Both the position numbers and the translations under genes were made by a program. A model generated the notes under the pieces. It ran no database searches and was not told the origin of the DNA. It saw nothing but the letters and a program-made list of their open reading frames with translations. This document shows positions 12,792 to 25,907 of a stretch of DNA of 64,000 bases, one piece after another; the stretch's first letter is position 1; every line of letters starts with the position of its first letter. This DNA comes from Gamsiella multidivaricata. Taxonomy: Eukaryota; Mortierellomycota; Mortierellomycetes; Mortierellales; Mortierellaceae. Location: NCBI RefSeq assembly GCF_025024155.1, contig NW_026251750.1, forward strand, positions 1-64,000. The letters are read 5' to 3'.

Positions 12792-12820
12792 CAGCACAGT
12801 CTAGGCGATAATTACGTCAT
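12792..12820 (+). repeat. Left terminal inverted repeat of composite element unit 1
   Basis: A 29-bp sequence that matches the reverse complement of 18211-18239 at 23 of 29 positions. The two shared cores are TCTAGGCG and TACGTCAT, at the same spacing. It lies about 80 bp beyond the stop codon of the MULE tail (12898), where a transposon end would be expected. A weaker match (TGAAA, one mismatch, CAG) continues outward, so the true end could be 10-20 bp further left. I found no clear target-site duplication. Confidence 0.6.
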
Positions 12821-12897
12821 CTATGACAAAGGGGGCTCCTGATTGGCAGACTTTTTGGACGGAAATAAGTTTTTTAAGGGTGGCAATAAGGACCATC

Positions 12898-13480
12898 CTA
12901 TTTTGGAACACAATCTTCTGACCGTCCATCAGACTCAATTCCTTGTGCCTGTTTGAGAACGGCCAACTGACATCTTTGTCCCGCCTGGACAGTATTGAGG
13001 CCCTTCACCTCAAGCAAGGTCTTCCTTACTCCTACAATTGTGGTCTGGGAGTACTCGAGCGTACATTTCCTCTTCTTTGTTGAGCTAGCGGCAATGACGA
13101 TCTCCGATATCATGTTTTTTAGATCGGCCTCAAGATCCTGAAGCTCCTGCTCTTGTTCTTTTTCTTTGGCTATTCTTTTCTGTTCCGCCTTCTCTGCCCT
13201 TTGCCTGTGAAGTAGAAGAAGGATTGCTGGTGGGAGGGTTTGCTCCAAAGACGACGGAAGTGTTGAATCAGGTGAAGGATCAAAATCATTCTGGTCGGCC
13301 TGTACTTGTAAGTAGTCAACTTCGTAAGGCTCTCCTTGATAAGAAATCTTCATGCCCTTATAGACCTTTGCGGTTAAATACATATGTTTGTACGGCGCCT
13401 GATGTTGAGCATAATAGTTGCAGCGACAGGCAGCAATGATGGCGAATTCTTCGTCTGTACGGACGTCATATGTAAGACTT
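12898..13480 (-). pseudogene. MULE transposase remnant (SWIM-finger tail)
   Basis: About 190 codons homologous to the C-terminal end of the MULE transposase at 24.6-25.0 kb. It begins in mid-protein with a degenerate SWIM zinc finger: CRCNYY, then APYKHMYL, where the third ligand cysteine of the CxC...CxH signature is Tyr (the other copy has PCKHMYL). After this come the shared KISY-type strand, a Glu/Lys/Gln-rich probable coiled coil around residues 65-100 of the 161-residue ORF that starts at 13383, and a KKRKCTL segment that aligns with KKKCTLL in the other copy. The DDE catalytic core is missing, so the gene is 5'-deleted. It stands divergent to the nuclease gene starting at 13987. Confidence 0.7.
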
Positions 13481-13986
13481 GTGAGTGAGCGAGGAACAAC
13501 GAGGTGAAAACGAGGGGAGACGAGTGAACAAGGTGAGTGAACAAAGACGAATGTGTGAAGACAATTGTTTATTGGCTAGACTGTTGTGATCATATGAACT
13601 GTGGTCCAACTACATAGTCTGTCCTTCCTTATATACATCAGATGAATAAAGGTCCTGATTAGTAATCCATGGTTCTAGACGTTTCGGTGCTGCCTTTGCT
13701 CATCTTTACATCATGGAGCTTTCTGTGATGAGGGCGACGTTGATCTAATCTAAGACGCGTCTAGCGTCACATGACAATACCAATCAGAGTTAAACTCTGA
13801 CATGAACCCACGCGTTACAGCACTGATCACTCGTTTTCCTTCCTTACTTTAAACCTCATAACCTCATCGTCTTTGCAGATTCCCGACATCCGACTTCTTT
13901 TCCATTGAATCGATCACATTACTTCAGCTAAACACTACACATTCGACAGCAGTTCTCTCATCGCACCACTCGACGTACAGGAAGTG
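13481..13986. promoter_or_regulatory. Divergent region between MULE remnant and nuclease gene
   Basis: 500 bp with no coding signal. 13490-13550 has repeated GTGAGTGA-like and ACGAGG-like motifs. A promoter for the plus-strand gene is expected here; TTATATA at 13630 and the A/C-rich leader before the ATG at 13987 are compatible with one. Also present may be the scar of the deleted 5' part of the MULE gene. Confidence 0.35.
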
Positions 13987-16900
13987 ATGGGTCTTAAAGG
14001 CTGGTACGCCTTTCTTCGTAAGAAGGGTTACCAACCCTCTGTACTTTACCCATCAGCCGCGTCAACAACCTCGAGCACCGCCACCAGAAGAGTCGACCTT
14101 CTCTCTCGCTTTTCAGTCATCAGGAATGCTTATACACGAAACTCCATCGAGGTGGCCCATACGATCCTAGAGCTGGATGCCATGCGGTTCGGGACCAAGG
14201 AAAACATCATTATCTACGTCGACGGAGTCCAGGCAGAGGAGAAGGAGTTCACTGCTCAGATCCGCCAAGAAGCTCGGGAGAAGACCACTAAGCGATGCAA
14301 AGAAAGTGTGGATGAACTACAAAGACGGATCGATAACAACCTCAAGGTCCGTAAGCGACACTTTGCCGATGCCTGGACCAGCCTTGCGTCCTCCTTCTAT
14401 TGGTCCCTGCCCATCCGTGATGCATTTGTCAAGTATATGCAGGACGAGGGGTGGAACATTCAGCGATGCGAGACGGAAGCTGATGTTGTGATCGCTCGAG
14501 ATTGCAGATCTGACGATATTGTCGTGTCTGCGGACAGCGATATGCTCGCGTACCCATCCGTGTCAACCCTGTGGCGCCCGATTTCAAAGAACTTGATTCT
14601 GATCTACAAGATACCGGATATCTGTGAGGTTCTCGGTGTGTCCAGGATCCAACTCACGACCCTCGCTGTTGCATCCAACAACGACTACGGGAAAAATATC
14701 TACTCTCTTGGACCGGCGACCAACTTTTCGATTATCAAGACGATCAAGAAACAAGGTAAATATCAATGATCAGAGTATTAAGGAGCGAGGCTGAACCATT
14801 TAACTAATATATATATTTTTCTACTTTTTTTTACCCTATTTTTGCAGATGTGCGACAGACGGTGAATGCATATTTGGAAGACTCCAAGGTCGTTTTAAAA
14901 AGCACAGGCAACAGAACACTTGAACTTGCACTCAGAGCCTTTGTTGATCTCCAACAGACGCCTGTCAGTGATCCTCGTCCTTTGTCCAACGTCTCGTCCT
15001 ACAGTGAGCTTTACAAACGACTCAAGGATCTTTGTGCCATGTACCAGGAGAACAAGGATTTTCGCGCACAACTGCAACCAAGATATGCTATATTTCTATT
15101 CAATACCGCACGGCATTTAGGACTTGGCATCGGTAATCGTCTCACAGCTCACCTTACTTATTGTTTTGATGTCAATAGTACTCGCAAGGATCAGATCATC
15201 CGCCTCCGCTCCTCGCATTCTTCCATTCGATATAGGACAGTTGAGTCTCCAGCTATGTTGAGCCTGGCCTTGGGTCGCGCTTACCACAGCCGCCATCACC
15301 GCAACCATCCTCAGCACAATCACAACAACCTGCACCGAATCTGCAGGATAACTCTCCGATCACATTACCATCTCAGGAGTCAAACGGTCACCCGCCGCTT
15401 CCAAGGACGCAATTCCCACGAAATCGCCATCGTTACTCATTCAAGACGAGGACAGGGGCAACAAACCTCCACCCCCAGTCGAGATGAAGCTCTACAAGTT
15501 CAAGCCTTACAGGGAGCCTGAAGCAAAAGATGAGCTTGAGCCCTCCAGCGACGAGCCCAAGCCCAAGCCCAAGCCCAAGCCCAAACTCAAAACGTTGTCC
15601 GATTCGAGTGCAGCCACCCGCAAGCTCGCTATTACACGGTTATTACAATACCAGCACCCAACGTCTACTTTGAACGTCGGTACTCTATCCGCTAACCTCA
15701 GACGAGCTCTGCCAAACGACGGTACCGTTCAACAGGAAGTTGCCCTCTGTATCCGAAACGCTGTGCGCGAGGCTGCCAGGATCAAACGACAAGGTCAACG
15801 AGTAATTGGGAAGTTTGTCGAGCATGTGAACAAGCATGGACCGGGTCCCAACGATCGTCGATTCATGGATTTCCTTTGTCCTCGAGTCTCCATGAAGGAC
15901 GCGAAAAAGCTGGATGATGATTGTGCTGCAGAGGACGACGATGAGGATGGTGGTGACATGAACCAGAAATCCAAGGATGGCAAAGGCTCTGAGCAGTTCT
16001 TGTTCCTCTAGAGCTTTCTGTCTACTCTGGGAACTACCCCCGAAAAAGTGGTACCGGTCAGAAGGTCAACGATTTCATTGATCGCCTCAAGGATCTCGGA
16101 CTGTACGCCCCACCACGTCCTCGGGCCGCTCTCAACGAGACACACTCCCTTCTCACCAACAGAGTTACTCCTATCGGTGGCGTTGCAGCTCAAGGTCGAA
16201 CTCAAAAAAATGTACCGTAATGGGACCTGTGAGCTGCATAATAAGGTATGAGTTGAGGGCACTACTGGTCATCTTAATGTACATCAAACCGATACCTATC
16301 ATGCCTCTCATTTATTATTTTTTATCTTCTCAATTATAGCTCCAGAAAAGAAAAAAGAAGGGGCTGCTGGTATCCGATGTTAATGTGGAGATCCAAGAGG
16401 AAGTATCTGCTATTGAAAACTACCTCGCGATCAACAAATTAAGTCCAAACCCTCGTAGGATCATCCCCATGTCGACGGCGAAGCAACCTTTTGTCAGTTT
16501 CACGGAGCGACAACTAGCCATGTTCTTTTTCAACCGCGGAGGCGCACTGAGGGCACGGGTTCAGGAACTGGTCGGTACCGTCTGCACATCCATGCAGGAT
16601 GTTGAGGAGTGGATAGGAGAAAAAGAACCAGGCTTTCTCATCAAGCACCTCACCGTCGATATCGATCCCGAAGACCTGACCAGTCGCCAGAGAGGCAAGG
16701 CTGGACACCGTGCTGCGATCAAGTTGTTATCCCTTGATGATTTCGAGACCCACTTGCAGATGCTGGACGATCCAGAGTTCAGACCGGAGACCTATGCCCG
16801 CAAAGGATATTTTCTCAGGGGTCTTTACGAACTGACGGATTCACTATGCAGCTCCTGTGTTCCAAGGTCAGGGAACTTCTGTCAGTCAAATACAAACGGT

Positions 16901-18045
16901 TGCCCGACGATCGCCTACCTCCTCGATTGACTTCAACACTTCACGGTACCAGTGATTTTTTGACGGAGATCCGAAACATTGTCCGAACCAAAGACGATGT
17001 GGCGAGACTTTGGCCTAGTGTCGATCCTAAAGATATCAAGATCCTCACCTTTGATGCAGGACAAGCTTTTGTCGTCGGAGCATACGCACATCTTCCACAA
17101 TCGGGCAAAGACAAGGATCCAGTGCAAGGAGCCCCTCCGTCCTTCAAAGACTCATTCCCTATTACCTCTTCCTCGACAACAACACCACAGGATGTTATGC
17201 AGAGACTCACTTTGGAACAACAAGCGACCACCACGCCACCAACAATGATAGGGCTCACGAAAGCCATAGAACTCACGAAAGCCCACCACCATAATCTTGC
17301 TGTCAACCAAAAAGCGGTGATGCAGCCTGTGTTCCGATACAGACGGTGGCTTGAGGACGAGAAGCAGTTGATTCCAGCGGGTCAATCAGACTCCATCGCG
17401 GACATCGAGTCCTGTCCTCCTCCTATTCGAGGTCCAGAGGCGAGCGTCACCAATTACATCGAGATGCTTGAACAAGTCGAGGACCGACTGTTGGACTTTT
17501 ATAATGGTAACAATAATCGGTTCAACAAACACACTTGGGATATGAAGCGAGCCAAGCACATCGAGTACCAGGCTATTGCCAACAGCCTACTCCGGATTGT
17601 TGGTGGCAGCATCGGTGAGCGCTGCAAGGATGACAATCCTGTGTTGATCGGTGTGGGCCTCGGTCAGTTCGGAAGCTCCAGTCGACTGTCATCTCTGCAC
17701 TCTTCATTTTTGTCGTATTTCGTCCCATTGGTAAGCAAATTCTTCACCATGTACCATCGAGAATGTCTTCAGAGGAGTGAGCGCCAATGAATAACATATT
17801 TTGTTATTTTATTTAGGCTCGGTCTCTCAGATACATTGTGGTGGGTCTCAACGAGTTTTATACGTCCGGATTGCCACCGGTTTGTGGCCCAAGTCACCCT
17901 TCGAGAACTCTTCTGCCCCCATTGTGAACGGTATCGCCACAGAGATGTGATGGCGGCCGAAAACATGTCCAACATTGCCCGAGAGTACCTATTGCACCAG
18001 GAACGACCACTCTATCTTCACCCCGTCACGGCAGATGGTAGATAA
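13987..18045 (+). pseudogene. XPG/FEN1-like plus Fanzor/TnpB-like nuclease fusion, copy 1 (decayed)
   Basis: Exons by comparison with copy 2: 13987..14755, 14848..15082, 15179..about 16250, 16340..17730 and 17817..18045. Exon 1 (256 residues, intact) is an XPG/FEN1-type nuclease: MGLKGW start, then acidic residues D37, D79 (YVDG), E162 and E164 (ETEAD), D183 and D185 (ADSD) and D233 (NNDYGKNIYSLGP), matching the seven metal ligands of FEN1. A basic/Pro-Lys repeat and acidic linker follow. The last two exons resemble TnpB/Fanzor: RuvC-I aspartate in TFDAGQ (codon at 17053), a GVGLGQF strand, the Glu of GLNE before the zinc ribbon, CPHC at 17914-17925 and the RuvC-III aspartate in HRDVMAAEN. 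Frame breaks occur near 15265, 15455, 16014, 16835 and 17865; the first ribbon CxxC has lost one Cys (RPDC). The in-frame TAA at 18043 is followed by 33 more codons to 18147, including SKKRRK. Confidence 0.75.
15083..15178 (+). other. Intron of copy 1 with mutated donor (AT...AG)
   Basis: Copy 2 splices the equivalent site with a normal donor (AG then GTAATA). In copy 1 the donor reads AG then ATATGC, and the acceptor is a normal ...CAATAG. The exons on both sides align with copy 2 (RSSTSKEQ versus PSTRKDQ), so this is an intron whose first G has become A. The intron happens to be open in frame, so retention would simply add 32 codons. Confidence 0.55.
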
Positions 18046-18210
18046 CCATGGATGGAGTCAAGAAGTCCAGGGCAAGAGATGGCCGAAGGGGCGATTGTTG
18101 GAACCAGCGCCACTAATAGCAAAAAAAGAAGAAAGATGGAACTTTAGCATTTTGTGTGTACGGCCACACACACGCGCGTGCTGATTACAGGGGGCGTTGA
18201 TGAATTTACA
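18046..18210 (+). other. 3' region of copy 1: tail with nuclear-localisation-like motif, then hairpin
   Basis: 18046-18147 continues the reading frame after the TAA and ends with SKKRRKMEL and a TAG; this looks like the original C-terminus, cut by a nonsense mutation. Right after it, 18153-18172 forms a hairpin with a 7-bp perfect stem (TGTGTGT / ACACACA) and loop ACGGCC. In Fanzor and TnpB elements the guide (omega) RNA is encoded at this place, between the end of the ORF and the transposon end. That function is only a suggestion here. Confidence 0.4.
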
Positions 18211-18239
18211 ATGACGTAGATAGCGCCTAGATAGTCCTG
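18211..18239 (-). repeat. Right terminal inverted repeat of composite element unit 1
   Basis: Reverse complement matches 12792-12820 at 23 of 29 positions, with the cores TCTAGGCG and TACGTCAT conserved. It ends within about 20 bp of the point where the C-terminal homology of copy 2 breaks off (18243-18258). Confidence 0.6.
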
Positions 18240-18242
18240 TTT

Positions 18243-21200
18243 TCATGACAAAATTACAGGGTACCCGCCGTCTGCCGTCCTGGGCTGTAGGTAAAGAGGT
18301 CTCTTCTGGTCCGGATATATTGTGCCTTTCACATAAAATTGTGCCCGATTAAAATTGTTAGGCGGGGTGGGTGTCAAGGGACAAAAGCTAACACTTGATA
18401 TTTTGGTGCAAAATAAAAGATCCAAAACATCGAGGATTAGTTTTGTCATGGCTTAAGAACTCAGGTGTTATTTCTTGTGGCCCATAACATGAACTTTTGG
18501 CCCGTTTTTTGACCCTAGGCTAAAAATTTTGTCCTGAGCTCAGTGAGCAATTTTATATGAAAGGCACAATATTCTCCGCGGCCATGACGTCCCTGTGGTG
18601 ACACCTCTTGCAGTGGATGCAGTAAAATTGGCGGATGTTCACCTGGGCCACAAAGTTTTCGCAATCGGGGCACTTTTTCGAAGTGTAGTATCCGTTTAGT
18701 CCAACTACGATATAGCCCAACGACCGCACCTTGATAAAAATAAAGGAATAAACGTGTTATCACCATGTGCAGATATCAAACGTTAGAACTCTTTGCGATG
18801 GTGGCAAACGGCATACGTACCAACGGGATAAGTATGCCAAAAATGAAGAATGGAGCGATGACAGGCGCCCGGTGCTCTTGAATCGTCCAAGACCCACTCC
18901 GATTAACACTGGATTTGCAGGGTTCCGATGTCGGCCGATGCTTCCGCCTAAGATACCGAGCAGACTCGCTGCAATAGCCTGGTATTCCGCTTGCTTGGCC
19001 CTCTCCATGTCCAAAGCATGCTTCTTGAATCGATTCTTTTTCCCGTTGTAAAACTCGGAGAGCCGCTCCTCGACCTTCTCCAGCTCCTTAACGTAATCAA
19101 AGAGATTGGCTCCTGGACCTCGGAGGGGTGGAAGTTGGGATTCGATATGGGCAATCAATTCTTTCTGCTTGTCGGGAGTCGCTTCCTTTTCTCCTTCTAG
19201 CCGTGGTTGGGATTCGGTTTGAGCAATCGACTCTATTTGCTTGTCGGGAGTCGCTTCCTTTTCTCCTTTTAACCACCTCCTGTACCGGAACACTGGTTGG
19301 AGTACCGCCTTTTGGTTGACGGTGAGGTTATAGTGAGCATCTGGATCTTCCGGTAGATATGCATATGCACCCACCACAAACGCTTGTCTAGCATTGAGCG
19401 TGAGGATCTTGATATCGTGAGGGTCGATCTCGGGCCACAACCATGCAACATCCTCCTTGGTCTGGATAACATGCCGAATTTCCTGCAAATAGTAGTCCAC
19501 CCCTCCGACCGTGGACGTGATCCGTGGTGGCAGGCGATCCGCCGGCAGTCTCCTGTACCGCACACATTGCAGTTCCCTCAACTTGAAGCCGAGCAGATAC
19601 AGTTCAAAACCATCCGTCAGCAACGAGCCCCTTGAAATATACCCTTTCTCGGCATATTCTCCTGGCTGGAATCCGGGCTCCTCCAACTTTTGCAAGTGGC
19701 TCCTGAGAGCATCGAGGGACCACAACTTGATCGCAGCTCGATGACCAGCCTTTCCTTTCTGGCGACTCGTCAAATTCTGTGGATCGATATCGGCGACAAA
19801 GTGTTTGAACAAGAAACCTGGCTCCTTTGCGCCTATCCACCATTGTATCCCTGGTATAGTAGCGAGGCCTCCATCTTTGGACACCAGCTCCACAAGCCTC
19901 TCCTTCAGCTTTCCTCCACTCTTGAAGTAAAATCCAGCCAACTCCCTCTCGGTAAATCCGATGTAGGGTTGCTTCGACGTAGTCATGGGCGCAATCCCTC
20001 GGGGGTTCTGGGTCAATTTGTTCAGCGCGACGTAGTTTTCAACTGCTGATATATCACCCCGAATCTGAATTTCCTCGTTAGACCTCTTCAGCAACCCCTT
20101 GCTCGCCCTCTTCTTCAGCTGCAATTAAAGAGAATGAAAAGAATTAGCGATACATTTATTAGGATTCCTGAACATCTGCGTTGATGACATGGCACCTCAA
20201 CTCTTACCGTCTTGTGTAGATCACAAGTTCCCTTCTTATACATCCTTTTTAGCTCGGCTTTCAACTGTCCGACTACAGATCGCACCAGGTCCTTGGGAGT
20301 AAATGGCAGAGTTTTGTTTATCTCTGACCAAGTCCGCGGTGGAGTGTACAGATCAAGACCTTCAAGACGAGAGATGAACGCATCGACCTTGATCCCGATA
20401 CCAGCAGATTTCGGGAAGTTGCCGGAGTACAGGTGTGTTAAAAAGTTCGAAAGGAACTGCCGCTGCTCCTTGTCATCCTTGCCTGATCCTTCCAGATCTG
20501 TGTCGTCCTCATCGCCATCATCCTCTTCGTCATCGTCCTCCCCCATAACGCTAACAATCTCGTCCCTGTCCTCGTCATCCTCCATAGCATCATCGGCATC
20601 ATCCTTGACATCCTTCATACTGACTCTCGGACAGAGAAGATCCAAAAACTTCCGCTCCTCGGCATCCAGGCTTTCAAGTCCTTTCTTGACCAAGTGTTCG
20701 ATGTACTCCCCGATCAACCTCTGGCACTGGCGCTTGATGCGTGCCGCTTCGCTCGGAGCCTTCTGATGGATAGCCATCACCTCTTGTTGCAGACCGTCTT
20801 GATTCGGAAGTGCGCGCTTGACATTGGCCAATAAAGTACCAAGATACAAAGAGGTCGTCGGGTGCTGATAGGTCATTAACCGAGTGATTGTTAGTTTCTC
20901 CTTCGTCACTGCCGATGTCGACAGTGATTTCGGCTTGGGCTTGGGTTTCGGCTTGGGTTTCGGCTTGGGTTTGGGATTCTCAGGCTTGTGTTCCGGTTCC
21001 TTGTAAGGCTTAGCGACAAATTGCTTCATCTTGGGTGGGGGTGGTCGCTTCTGAGCCTGAGTCCTCTCTCGTCGTTTAAACGAGTGCCGATGACGATGCT
21101 GGGGAATACGAGTCCGTGACAAGGGAGGATGACCAGCTTGCTCTTGAGGAGAAGAGGAACCTTGGGTGGTCAAGGCGAGCTGCTGCGATTGTGCTCCTGG

Positions 21201-22536
21201 AACTGGTTGGGCAAGGGGAGGGGGCTGAACGGCCTGCCGAGGAGTCTTGATATATGCATTAGAGTGTTTTGGTGCTGGCGACTCAACCGTTTCGAAACGA
21301 TTTGGGGCCTGAGATGATCTTAGACGCACAATCTGTTCCTTGGAGGTGCTACTTATATTGAACAAAAACAAAAATGGTTAGTTAAACTAGTCGTTAATGA
21401 TGCCTAGTAGAGAGCAACATGCACCCCCAATCAGAAAAAAATAAATATTACCTCCTCTCGGGCGGGCGGCTTTTCTTGAGTTGCTCGTGTCGGGAACGAA
21501 GGTCTCGGAACCTCTTACGGAGATCATTGAATGAGAGGCCAGGTGTAGAGGCGTTTTGGGGGTCGACAAGAGTCTGCTTCTTGTCCACAAAGACTCGCAG
21601 AGCGACATCGAATGTCTCGCCTGTTGTGTTCTTGGTCGAGACTGTAATGTGGCCCAAGTATGCAGTTACGATGGACTCTGTGTCTACGAGAAAAAAAAAT
21701 ATAAAAAATAAGAGCATATTCTATTGACGTATCCCAAGACCACAAATCATAATCATTTACGTTTCACTTGAGTGTTACCCTGCGCATTGAGACTCTTGAT
21801 GATGGACTAGTTTGTGGCCGGGCCGAGCGAATAGATGTTCTTGTTGTAGTCATTCGATGATACCACGGCGAGGGCAGTGAGATGATCTCGAGACAATCCA
21901 AGTTGCTGACAAACATCCGCGAGCTTGTATACCAGGACAAGGTATTTCGAAATGGGACGCCACAGAGTACAGACGGAAACATAGGCCAACATATCAGATG
22001 ACGATATCATCGGGTCCGCAATCAGTGGCAATCACAAGATCCGCTTCCGTATCGCAGATCCGTACTGTCCAGCCAGCTTGTTTCATGTATGTGAGGAATG
22101 CTTGGCGGTTAGGCGATGTCCAGTAGAATGTAGCGGCCAGACTGGTCCTGACATCGGTGAAATGGCGCTTCCGCGGTTTGAGGTTGTTGTTGATGTGCCG
22201 TTCGAGCTCGTCCAGGCTTTTCGTGCATTGGACAGTTGCCTTTTCCCGAGAAGCCCTGCGAATCTCGGCTGTGTGCTGCTTCTCGACAGCTTGTCCTCCA
22301 TCGACGTATAGAACCAGGTTCGACCTGGGGCCAAAGCGCATCAAATGTTGTCCAAGGATCGCATGAGCCCGTTCGGGAGTATTGTAGGAATAGGTGTTCC
22401 TGATCACGGAATAAAAGGACAAGACATCGATTCGACCTTTTCGAATGCCCATGGCCGTCTCCATCGTCGATACGTGGATGACCGAAGGATCATAACCATT
22501 CCGACGGATGAATGGGAACCAGTCTTTTAGACCCAT
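18243..22536 (-). pseudogene. XPG/FEN1-like plus Fanzor/TnpB-like nuclease fusion, copy 2 (decayed)
   Basis: Same domain order and intron positions as copy 1, on the opposite strand, ATG at 22536. Parts: XPG domain 22536-21775; second exon about 21695-21450; linker exon 21363-20207 (Pro/Gln-rich, a KPKPKP tract, a long Asp/Glu block); N-terminal lobe and RuvC exon 20119-18810; final exon with zinc ribbon from 18730. Here the ribbon is good (CPDC...CIHC) and HHRDVMAAEN is present. Lesions hit catalytic sites: an 11-bp deletion near 22005 removes the ADSD metal ligands, E162 is Asp, a TAG replaces Phe after GPATN near 21809, the RuvC-I aspartate is Asn (TLNARQ), the Glu of GLNE is Gly, and one base is missing near 18825. 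A MITE splits the C-terminus and the tail after TADGGYP is lost. The two large exon ORFs (418 and 454 residues) are otherwise open. Confidence 0.75.
18319..18570. mobile_element. Small MITE in the zinc-ribbon exon of copy 2
   Basis: About 250 bp, non-coding, with terminal inverted repeats of about 22 bp that differ at one position. Each end begins TTGTGCCTTTCA, and both continue with ATAAAATTG. If the repeat starts at TTGTG it is flanked by TA on both sides, as for Tc1/mariner-type MITEs. Left of it the coding sequence of copy 2 resumes (RPLYLQP); right of it ends HHRDVMAAEN. Eight to ten codons of the gene are missing across the site. Confidence 0.75.
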
Positions 22537-22624: not shown

Positions 22625-25041
22625 TTGCACGCGTCATCCGCGACACCAGCCTCATGGTCCGTGCACTTGCTTACACAGGATGAAAATTCTTTCAGGGACG
22701 AACAAAATCAAGACTGGAAGTCGATTAAAGCTCGTCTTCGCTTAAGCAAGTGGCAGCTCAATAAGGTGATACTGTTGTCCTCTCTCTGTGTACTTCTGTA
22801 CTTTGTCCTTGTCGCGTCTCCTCATCACTTTGGTACCCATCACATTGCTATCCCCTCACTCGTCGTGACACTCATACCTCACTTCATACTGTCATACTGC
22901 GGCTAGCTCATACTGCAATTCTGATTAGCAACCATTAAACTGTCGTATCGTTCATTGCAATAGCTTGAAGACCAAGCTTATCCTGCTGCGGTGCCTCCAT
23001 GCCTGTATATGCTGTATGACAACGTTCGAGCAGTCTTATACCGTAGCCAGACGGATCAATCTCGGAAGGCGCTCAGTCCCATCAGGAGTGTGCAGCTTTG
23101 GCTAGAGCAAATCAAAGACGAAGGTGGCAAAAGCATGTTCAAGGAACCGTTCAAGGATGCAATTGAAGCACACCGCGAGCATTACTTGCTTGCATGGTGT
23201 TCCAAGTTCCGGCTGAAAGTATGTGTGTGTAGATCGCTTGCAAACAAACCGCTGCCTCTTGAACACTGCCTAAAAAACCTCAACACTTGCTATTTCAGGT
23301 TGATCTTTCCGTAGGTCATGAAGAACAACACCATTTTTGTGTGCATGGACTCGACACACAAAACAGTTAAACGCTAAAGACGAGCCCAAACAACGACACA
23401 ATATTCAATTCGGCGTACCTGTTTACCATCCTCGTCAAGGACCGAACAGTGCAAGCTGGCATTCCGATCGCGTTTATGGTTTGCAACTCAGAATCTAGGT
23501 AAGAATGTTACTCATTCCTGTTCAATTGGCCCATTTTGATGCTGCCTTGTTTTTTTATTCACTTTCTATGCCGTTCAACTGCAGCTACATTGTAACAGAG
23601 TGGCTGTTGTGGTTGAAAACCGAGTGTGGGCTTCGAGCTTCGAAGTTCATGGTTGACTGTTCTGTTGCTGAGTCGGAAGCACTAAAGAAGGCATTCCCGC
23701 TGCCACCAATGGACATCTACTTCTGCGCCCTCCATGTCGGCCAAGCATGGGAGCGAAATTTGCGAAGGCTGCACAACGTGAGTGAATCAAACGCACCATT
23801 TTTGATTGAATTTTTTTTTAATGCTCCACAACCCCTCGGAGGCATCACATATCATCTATCCAGGCTTGTACTTACTTACTCTTTTATCTGATCAAAGGTG
23901 GCCGATAGCGACATGATGCGCCCTGGTTTGAAAGCAATTCGAAATGCCGACTCAGAGGCCGCGCTCCAGGAAAAGTGGAATGACTTTCAAAGGAGATTTG
24001 CTCATGCGAAAGAACTTATCGCCTACATCAAAACTTGGATGGAACCCGAAAGGTTGGCCAAATGGGCCCTTTACCAGAGAGAGGTGATAAATCGTTTCTT
24101 TTCCTCTCTTCCCCATACGCCGCATCTGTCTCATTCACCCTTCAACTAACAAATTACACGTTTTTTTTATTACGTTATCAGAACAATCAGCATATTAACA
24201 CGAACAATTTAGTCGAAAGTTGGCACAAGACATGTAAGCGACAATACTTGGGATACAAGAGAGATTTGCGTCCTGATGATCTGATCTTTTTATTGCAAGG
24301 AACGGTGGACATTGATTATAGGACATCATACTACAGAATCAGTCGTGGACTACAACCCCTGACACTGTCTGAAGCTGCTTTGGCAAGAAGAGCAAAGGCA
24401 ATGGCGCTACCATTCGTTGATGCCAAGGACATGGTATCCGAACCATCTCAGGACGGAAAGGTAAATCCATTTGTGAACAATGTTTCCCCATGTGCATAGT
24501 TAGTTTGTGTTCTAATTTTCTTTACTTTCGCTGTGTTACATTGTAATTTTCAGTGCTGTCTTTCTCTGACTTCAGCAAGGTGTATTCGATCCATACAAAC
24601 AAAGATATGTAGACCATCGTTTCTTGCACCTGCAATGATTATGATCGGCACAAAGAGCCTTGCAAGCATATGTATCTTGTACCAAGGATCTACTGCGAAG
24701 TGGAGATCAGCTACCACGGTGACCCAGCAGATGAAAAATTTCAGGAAAAATCAAAGGGAGCGACCACTGGCAACGACAATGGTTACCTCCCTCTGGAGTC
24801 CATGCTTTCCGACAGACTCAAGCTCATGCTCCAGAAGCACAGGACTGAAAAAGAAGAGGCTGAGAAGTTGGCCAAAGCGAAAGTCAAAGAGGCCAGGCAG
24901 AAGCGAGAATGGGAAGAAACCCAGGCACAGTTTGATGCCGATCTGGAGACGCTTTTCGACCTTGCAAAAAAGCAAAAAAAGAAATGCACGCTTTTGTACT
25001 TTAAAGGAACGGCAGCCTTGCTGCACACCACTGCCCTTTAA
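22625..25041 (+). pseudogene. MULE-type (Mutator-like) DDE transposase, frameshifted
   Basis: Transposase of the Mutator-like superfamily, which cuts and pastes DNA with a DDE/RNase H-like core. Likely exons: 22625..22765, 22964..23218, about 23313..23498, 23585..23777, 23898..24083, 24182..24460 and about 24576..25041. The three catalytic residues are visible: D in VCMDSTHK (near 23350), D in FMVDCSVAE (near 23650) and E in NNLVESWH (near 24220). The family's CxxH motif is present as FCALH. A SWIM zinc finger (CTCNDYDRHKEPCKHMYL) and a Lys/Glu-rich coiled coil close the protein. It is broken: a one-base frame change near 23370 separates the first D from the rest, and a TAG at 24610 stands where the SWIM frame should be open. 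The N-terminus is not certain. It is divergent to nuclease copy 2. Confidence 0.75.
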
Positions 25042-25907
25042 GCCAAAGGACTTGGTAGCCGTACTCCGGCAGGGCGTAAGTGCCAGTGAATAAAGTTAGT
25101 CAAACTACAATAGTGTCAATTGTCAATTGTGAGCGTGCAATAGTAAAGGTCAAGGGGATGAATAGATAATTAAATGATGTTCATTGGTAAGGATTAATAG
25201 GGTATTTATACCAAGAGAGAGAGAGGGAAGTGGTGGCGGTGGCGGTGGCCAGGAGTGGTGGCGGTGGCCAGGAGTGGTGGCGGTGGCCAGGAGTGGTGGC
25301 GATCGTCAATTGTTTGTGGCAGTGACAGTGGCGGTGGCGAGGAGTGGGAGTGGGGATTTGATTTGATTGTGGTACAAGGCTCAAGTGCGGTACGGCTCTG
25401 TCTGTTTGCAGAGCGTCGTCAAAATTGACCAGCAATGAGTTTCGAGAATTATAGCCGGGAAAGGCGGTAAGTGCGACTCAACCTCTATTAAAATATATCC
25501 AGTGGGTGATCCATGATATAGGATTGTCCCATTGAGACAGCCCTCCAGCGGCTGGTGCCACATGAACACTTCCCAGCTGGAACCCCAGCAGACGAAAGCA
25601 CTTTCTGCTGTCGGCAACACACCAGAGAGGATTCCCGCAACGTGATTGGCCAGCCTGAGCGCGTTTTTCCCTGTTCTTGTTTGAAAATAGAAATTCGTAT
25701 TCAGACAGACCCTCTCGTTCCGTGCCTGATTCGGCCTGCTCCTTTCCTTCTCTTTACGCATTCCGCCCAGAAAACCTCCCTCTCTCCTCCTCCTCTCCCT
25801 TCCTGTTCTGGTTTACTCTCCACTCAATCTACATTTCCCCTTGTTCCCGCTAGATTCAGACAATCGCCAACGGACACATCAACCGACATCTCATCTCCCG
25901 AAGAGCC
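25042..25907. other. Intergenic region with 19-bp minisatellite; promoter of the carrier gene
   Basis: No gene. A G-rich minisatellite lies at 25232-25300. 25690-25860 is pyrimidine-rich on the plus strand, a common feature just upstream of fungal start codons, and leads to the carrier ATG at 25908. Confidence 0.5.
25232..25300. repeat. 19-bp G-rich minisatellite
   Basis: Tandem unit containing CCAGGAGTGGTGGCGGTGG; the CCAGG core recurs at 25249, 25268 and 25287, so the period is 19 bp with just over three copies, preceded by partial GGTGGC units. Confidence 0.85.

Follow-up and report, generated by a model that had tools for sequence, protein, structure and literature searches.

A transposon-borne gene of Mortierellaceae that appears to join a FEN1/XPG-like nuclease to a Fanzor-like RuvC nuclease

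Do two nuclease-like regions that follow each other in a fungal transposon belong to one gene, and what might such a gene do for the element that carries it? The question is raised by the window analysed here, a stretch of 64,000 nucleotides at the start of contig C118 in the surveyed genome of Gamsiella multidivaricata (37.5 Mb, 180 contigs). It contains a fusion gene at positions 13987-18045 of the forward strand (copy 1) and a second one from position 22536 leftwards on the reverse strand (copy 2); judged from what is left of them, each is the dead relic of a Mutator-like DNA transposon that is found in Mortierellaceae. An initial annotation, made from the letters alone, had described one gene with a FEN1/XPG-like and a Fanzor/TnpB-like nuclease, a claim now upheld by full-length annotated homologues, conserved active sites and profile searches: a single gene almost certainly encodes a FEN1/XPG-like 5' nuclease at the N terminus and, fused to it at the C terminus, a Fanzor-like RuvC nuclease of the TnpB family. 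That annotation is extended here by the Mutator-type element in which the gene lies and by the insertion motif TGACGT. For the explanation as a whole, which comprises a Mutator-like element, the two-nuclease fusion and the mechanism proposed below, we estimate a probability of about 0.6.

The linkage of the two halves is seen across the host genome. Profile matches comprise at least 109 TNB and at least 133 XPG-like pieces, the latter merged to 101 loci. At 57 of the 101 merged XPG loci a TNB match follows downstream, on the same strand and at no more than 6 kb (at 2.7-3.4 kb in 43 of them), and the other three arrangements of the two domains are found at 4, 3 and 3 loci. The paired loci range down to 25% identity to copy 1. 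There are also 44 XPG loci without a TNB partner and 52 TNB matches without an XPG match; these are likely to result from candidate limits, broken contigs and decay, the broken zinc ribbon of copy 1 being one such cause.

The same arrangement is found in 41 distinct homologous proteins or parts of it, at least 31 of which were retrieved with the spliced, gap-marked L042 locus as query (the 8000 best word-sharing candidates were scored) and 12 by a profile search. All 41 carry the names of genera that we take to belong to Mortierellaceae. Based on a regular expression, the FEN core is present in 24/41, the zinc-ribbon end with a displaced Glu in 23/41, and both in order in 15/41; these 15 belong to Entomortierella, Mortierella, Dissophora, Linnemannia, Benniella, Podila and Haplosporangium, and the remaining homologues are partial, truncated or divergent. 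Protein P0015 (Benniella sp., 1276 aa) scores above the Pfam cut-offs, given here in brackets, for TNB (45.5; 26.3), XPG_I_2 (28.2; 24.2) and XPG_I (26.2; 24.9). In the precomputed Pfam annotation XPG_I occurs together with TNB in three of 31 proteins (P0015, P0019 and P0020), and among 18 proteins that were aligned, 16 match TNB and seven match XPG_I at E up to 0.01. Database names in this group can mislead: one fusion, P0021, is listed as a putative transposase and one fragment, P0048, as ribosomal protein S27AE.

With two broken copies in the window and gene predictions behind the database proteins, two adjacent genes fused by annotation error have to be considered. Such an error is very improbable, given a linker that is conserved and open, with residues H447, P448 and W734 invariant across the 18 proteins, and exon phases that join cleanly in L042 except for one frame break. 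Full-length homologues are predicted as single proteins, rather than as separate genes, and long fusions are predicted in seven genera. Also, the linker and both halves diverge together: among 12 proteins the distances of the one half correlate with those of the other (r = 0.70, p = 0.0001), which is what an old fusion passed on as a unit would give. Locus L043 (contig C25) looks mosaic: its FEN exon is that of a subfamily also seen in L044, its RuvC end that of another.

Concerning the N-terminal half, the window exons taken singly gave only matches below the Pfam cut-offs (Pox_G5 at 5.4e-4 and 1.3e-4, XPG_I at 0.005); such single-exon searches were too weak to decide and family profiles were used instead. 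The N half of the profile of 18 homologues matches RAD2 (3.8e-11), FEN1 (8.3e-9) and XPG (1.6e-8) in the PDB. The seven catalytic acids of FEN1/XPG are all found in the aligned family and are kept where the sequence is present (numbering of P0006, from Mortierella sp. GBAus27b): D35 in 12/12, D78 in 15/16, E163 in 16/17, D165 in 16/17, D182 in 17/17, D184 in 16/17 and D232 in 17/18. The initial annotation had listed this set in copy 1; D37, D79, D183, D185 and D233 stand, but in place of E162 and E164 the conserved pair of acids is E164 with D166, in the motif EAD. The FEN half as such is supported weakly by the single window exons and strongly by the profile of the 18 homologues. The family resembles the FEN1/XPG/Rad2 5' nucleases in its MG start, its seven metal-binding acids and its hairpin-like NDY..LGP end; it differs from them in an Asp at what we take to be the E160 position in FEN1 numbering, in the C-terminal RuvC half and in being carried by a transposon. 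Academ is a superfamily of DNA transposons with an XPG-like nuclease; unlike the fusion it has no known TnpB-type half, and a literature search for it gave no relevant title among the matches listed.

The N half also gives weak matches to XRN_N (E 0.01 to 0.03), and enzymes of the FEN1 superfamily are able to cut RNA flaps. Both points would suit a domain that acts on RNA, trimming the 5' end of the element's own guide RNA in the manner of XRN and leaving the cutting of DNA to RuvC alone. The matches to the DNA nucleases RAD2, FEN1 and XPG are far stronger, and we consider a role confined to RNA quite unlikely.

The C-terminal half ends in a zinc ribbon that is recognised by PF07282 (cut-off 26.3 bits) with 46.7 bits in copy 2 and, below the cut-off, with 21.7 bits in the last exon of copy 1 alone. 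Of the TnpB-type end first described for both copies the zinc-ribbon half is supported; neither copy has an intact RuvC and zinc-ribbon end. The RuvC D-E-D residues are conserved in the 18 aligned proteins (D877 in 17/17, E1063 in 15/16 and D1097 in 17/17). The RuvC-II Glu is displaced to a place six residues before the zinc finger (Ealt; E in 15/18, with two gaps and one Gly), and the presumed column of the canonical Glu, chosen by eye, holds G or A. The C4 zinc finger is followed by Asp (RD), with the Cys columns occupied in 16-17/18 and the Asp in 17/18. The accessible part of PMC10711439 gives Ealt, and a RuvC-I that in Fanzors is almost always DPG, as Fanzor criteria. DPG is found at RuvC-I in 1/18 of our sequences (the second position being L in 11, G in three, and M, A and a gap in one each), and because of this the C half, by its residues, is Fanzor-like and not strictly a Fanzor; it has the displaced Glu and the C4 zinc finger with its Asp, but mostly not the DPG. 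In the very divergent L044 subfamily RuvC-I has the DPG of canonical Fanzors too (IDPG), and the FEN exon continues past the place of intron 1.

The second half also matches TnpB and TNB profiles, a point on which the initial annotation had made its reading depend. The C-half profile matches in the PDB the TnpB-like protein L79 of mimivirus (8.8e-5), which we take to be the mimivirus Fanzor2, LaTranC (1.4e-4), Cas-phi3 and, weakly, TnpB; the C end of the whole-family profile matches LaTranC (0.001), and phmmer with one C half against the PDB found Cas-phi3 only (E 0.6). NCBIfam guided_TnpB is matched by 9/9 C halves (best 2.4e-10), one of which has 34.4 bits against a cut-off of 100. With hhalign, four TnpBs from viral contigs aligned at the zinc-ribbon end alone, over 60 columns (97.5%). 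These come from five TnpB loci in IMG/VR (L084-L088); the four open reading frames read are of 388-399 aa and therefore too short for a FEN domain. Their Glu is in the displaced, Fanzor-like position, with DLG at RuvC-I and GDLD at the likely canonical Glu region. In prokaryote genomes scanned by pattern 44 stretches matched and none was confirmed as a relative. A search with the C half, which reaches only relatives that share short words, gave no canonical Fanzor among the best 120 of 265 proteins, the named ones being Mortierellales.

Compared with Fanzor1 and Fanzor2 (SpuFz1; mimivirus L79, PDB 9b0l), the fusion has in common the displaced Glu six residues before the C4 zinc finger, the HRD that follows, carriage by a eukaryotic DNA transposon and a conserved motif beside the left end. 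It differs in its N-terminal FEN/XPG-like nuclease, in RuvC-I, which is mostly DLG, DGG or DAG and not DPG, and in its length of about 1,140-1,360 aa against the 400-700 aa given for Fanzors in the accessible part of PMC10432273. The TnpBs of IS200/IS605 and IS607 share with it RuvC and the zinc ribbon, profile matches and an element that adjoins a fixed motif; unlike them, the fusion has the displaced Glu, is eukaryotic and spliced, and is joined to FEN.

The gene belongs, as we read its surroundings, to a Mutator-like transposon in which it is divergent from a transposase of Mutator-like element (MULE)/SWIM type. In family K, represented by L056 on contig C93, the fusion is divergent from a transposase gene that matches SWIM (PF04434) with 25.3 bits (cut-off 19.6) and MULE (PF10551) with 26.6 bits (cut-off 27.6, E 8.1e-6); the older locus L054 matches MULE with 18.1 bits (E 0.0037), and its pieces gave no SWIM match. 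Remnants of a K-type transposase gene are found upstream of both window copies, and remnants or genes of transposases stand divergently upstream of the fusion in several families. Target duplications are of 9 bp: TGGTCGGTC in C131, exact over 9; 12 shared bases in C93, with ACAAGCGCT (9) outside the terminal motif; and ATCCCATGT/ATCCCGTGT in C126, identical in 8/9. No end-to-end inverted match of at least 20 nt was found in L056 as terminal inverted repeats; some MULEs have no long ones. The fusion-side end of K is sharp at 13/14 places. Its copies are 92-100% identical across this end and several are located at contig ends, for which reasons family K appears to have been recently active. The C93 copy has a frame break in the FEN exon.

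Fanzor1 genes have been found in similar surroundings: the accessible part of PMC3627910 describes them in Mutator-type elements of Mucoromycota with 9-bp duplications and, so far as that part goes, no transposase inside the element. The MuDR-type elements ROr-4, PBl-3 and MCi-4 presented there are alike in combining a Fanzor-type gene, a Mutator-type element, an early-diverging fungus and 9-bp duplications. They are unlike in having terminal inverted repeats and no encoded transposase, whereas the element here has a transposase, no long terminal inverted repeat that we could see, and a fused flap nuclease (Bao and Jurka 2013, PMC3627910). As no paper in the literature searched combines Fanzor with XPG, none names an XPG domain for those elements.

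Where the element inserts is marked by a short motif. All 14 transposase-side ends found for family K were read, and the terminal motif is present in 12 of them; in C93 it is accompanied, just inside, by a small deletion. TGACGT stands exactly 12 nt outside in 11 of these 12, after the 9-bp duplication, 2 nt and one base, and its orientation relative to the fusion gene is identical in all 11; on the fusion side it is found in 0/13 readable flanks, in either direction, within 40 nt. At the rate of TGACGT in the window (1.4e-4 per position and strand), the chance of 11/12 at one fixed offset is about 5e-42. The end L077 lacks the terminal motif and still has TGACGT nearby. Copy 1 in the window has the motif at exactly the spacing of K: ACGTCAT plus 2 nt (12814-12822, forward strand), as in that young family, abuts the left target duplication ATGACAAAG (12823-12831), which is identical in 8/9 to the right one, ATGACAAAA (18245-18253). 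Five distinct left ends are readable in the family of copy 1 (the window and four among 12 further loci), of which three fit (the window, L041 and L012); the duplications at L041 and at L012 are themselves poor matches. In family B, C47 fits the spacing to within a base. The 12-nt spacing in family K (L056, L057, L072-L083) is usable by itself as a target-site marker.

Read along the fusion gene, the empty site is 5'-ACGTCAY, then NN, the 9-bp duplication and the flank. The accessible part of PMC10432273 reports for SpuFz1 a conserved CA upstream of the left inverted repeat and the target-adjacent motif (TAM) CATA. Because the left-flanking motif of SpuFz1 thus matches its TAM, we predict 5'-ACGTCAY to be the TAM or target motif; it would be in the right place for one, since the flank would be part of any guide RNA that ends at the fusion side.

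The same evidence may be read without any guide RNA. The fusion would then be an accessory of transposition, both nucleases processing ends made by the MULE or flaps of gap repair, and TGACGT would be purely a target of the transposase or of tethering by a host bZIP protein. TGACGT is the core of the ATF/CREB site and lies at the transposase end, transposases are divergently upstream in several families, and the 3' end is weakly structured, all of which would suit an accessory role. Set against it are the RuvC D-E-D and the zinc ribbon, kept as in RNA-guided TnpBs, the one-sided, TAM-like motif in its fixed orientation, and the match between left-flanking motif and TAM in SpuFz1 (PMC10432273, accessible part). 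On balance we regard an accessory without RNA guidance as unlikely, and guidance of the fusion protein by RNA as rather probable.

If guided, the candidate guide-RNA region is the 3' end of the element, which in copy 1 is non-coding (18145-18244, forward strand) and has two predicted hairpins (z -1.7 only). For Fanzor1 the target duplication may belong to the RNA scaffold, according to the accessible part of PMC10711439. A common fold across families was only glimpsed, as hairpins and one compensatory pair between L001 and L042, and is not claimed. The 3' ends of several elements (window 18206-18225, L004, L042, L007 and L001) hold a TGACGTA-like or TGACCTA motif similar to the target-site motif, which in the window and L004 is in or beside a predicted hairpin.

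The initial annotation had suggested that the fusion might pair programmable cleavage with flap trimming. The mechanism that we propose would run as follows. The transposase would place the element at a set spacing from TGACGT and in a set orientation to it, and a guide RNA supplied by the 3' end of the fusion transcript would extend into the flank. Once the element has been excised, or where an allele is empty, the ribonucleoprotein would recognise 5'-ACGTCAY with the matching flank and RuvC would cut; the FEN domain would then trim the R-loop or the break end, and repair would copy the element back from the copy that bears it. That FEN acts on the target R-loop or ends has, in our view, somewhat less than an even chance. 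The full picture of an RNA-guided homing transposon with two nucleases, in which RuvC would cut the empty site and the FEN1-type domain would either cleave at the R-loop junction or resect the break, with the element copied back or spreading to alleles that lack it, is more tentative still. The predicted division of labour between two nucleases is unlike the single nuclease of TnpB, Fanzor or Cas12.

Several observations count against this explanation. Concerning the protein, XPG matches of single proteins are mostly below the Pfam cut-off, which one of the eight proteins scanned passes (P0015); DPG at RuvC-I is rare, as described above; SpuFz1 is reached by the C-half profile only at E 1.1; the TnpB matches are confined to the zinc-ribbon end and do not cover the whole RuvC, RuvC-I having been identified by motif; and no WED/REC region was recognised in the fusion. 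Concerning the element, the MULE match is one bit below its cut-off in K and much weaker in L054. TGACGT is missing at the K ends L083, one of the 12, and L082, which lacks the terminal motif, and at two of the five left ends in the copy 1 family (L039 and L040), and C124 of family B does not fit the spacing; a preference of the transposase or host bZIP tethering would explain the motif equally well. Lastly, folding of the 3' end is weak in three families (z -1.6, -1.7 and -3.0 for the last 100 nt; -1.2, -0.2 and -2.0 for the last 150 nt).

The two window copies, by the damage in their reading frames, are both pseudogenes that cannot be active. The introns had been said to be at the same positions in both; with splice sites read by eye, introns 1, 3 and the last agree, but the second is less clear in copy 1. 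The copy 1 element, of about 5.4 kb, covers 12832-18244 on the forward strand, and pieces of it are repeated at about 93-96% identity in L039, L040 and L041. At its left is the C-terminal remnant of a divergent MULE/SWIM-type transposase (12901-13383, reverse strand; 38-39% identity to the SWIM-end reading frames of C47 and C124). The fusion gene follows on the forward strand, with exon 1, which encodes the FEN1/XPG-like domain and all seven acids, at 13987-14755, the middle exons of the linker, which contain frame breaks and near 16010 a stop, at 14848-16245, an exon with the pre-RuvC region and RuvC-I (FDAGQ) at 16340-17730, and a last exon with GLNE, the broken zinc ribbon and HRDVMAAEN at 17817-18045. 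The frame breaks, read by eye, are at about 15255, 15460, 16010 and 16821, and the zinc ribbon is out of frame.

Copy 2 is read on the reverse strand. Its exon 1, with the FEN1/XPG-like domain, is at 21779-22536 and broken by a stop near 21994; the middle exons (linker) are at 20208-21683, the exon with the pre-RuvC region and RuvC-I at 18821-20118, and the last exon, with CPxC..CxxC and HRDVMAAEN, at 18573-18729. LNARQ replaces LDAGQ in the RuvC-I exon and GLNG replaces GLNE in the last exon, so the Asp and the Glu of RuvC are both lost. A 69-nt direct duplication (87%) at 19134-19274 repeats a Glu/Lys-rich segment of the RuvC exon. Remnants of a divergent MULE-type transposase are found upstream of copy 2 (22964-25110, forward strand; the part at 24670-25110 matches at 1.6e-11); the single pieces gave no Pfam match to any transposase family. 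The last exon is interrupted by a 256-bp element with 25-bp terminal inverted repeats (96%) at 18317-18572, and between this element and copy 1 is a C-terminal remnant of copy 2 (18254-18316, reverse strand; ..DQKRPLYLQPRTADGGYPV, translated by eye). When the flanks of copy 1 are joined, the end of copy 2 resumes (..DQKRPLYLQPRTADGGYPV), followed by a terminal stretch that resembles those of other families; because the joined flanks continue the end of copy 2, it is most likely the 3' end of the copy 2 element that the copy 1 element entered. A likeness between the left flank and the right end of copy 1 had been considered as terminal inverted repeats and was dropped, the flank being the 3' end of copy 2.

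No description of a fusion of a TnpB/Fanzor-type with a FEN1/XPG-type nuclease was found in the literature searched, whose scope excludes subscription papers and most preprints, so that one may be in print elsewhere. In the openly searchable literature no paper was found for Fanzor with XPG, Fanzor with Mortierella or Mutator-like with TnpB; TnpB with XPG gave only a paper on Cas12a R-loops, and the two domain names none on TnpB by title. Among the matches listed, one review on cargo integration (PMC12719977) mentions flap endonuclease, Fanzor and TnpB together, and for TGACGT with transposon and target site duplication no title concerned Mutator-like elements. What seems to be new is the fusion with XPG, the pairing with a transposase and the TGACGT motif on one side only. 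The role of Fanzors within their transposons is stated as unknown in the accessible part of PMC10432273. If nature has paired a guided cutter with an enzyme that processes flaps or ends, this would hint at the way in which eukaryotic elements direct the repair that follows guided cleavage, and editing tools with control over end processing could be modelled directly on the fusion. Because one element combines a transposase and a nuclease with sharply defined ends, a predicted TAM and many copies of recent date, the idea of homing would be directly testable in this family.

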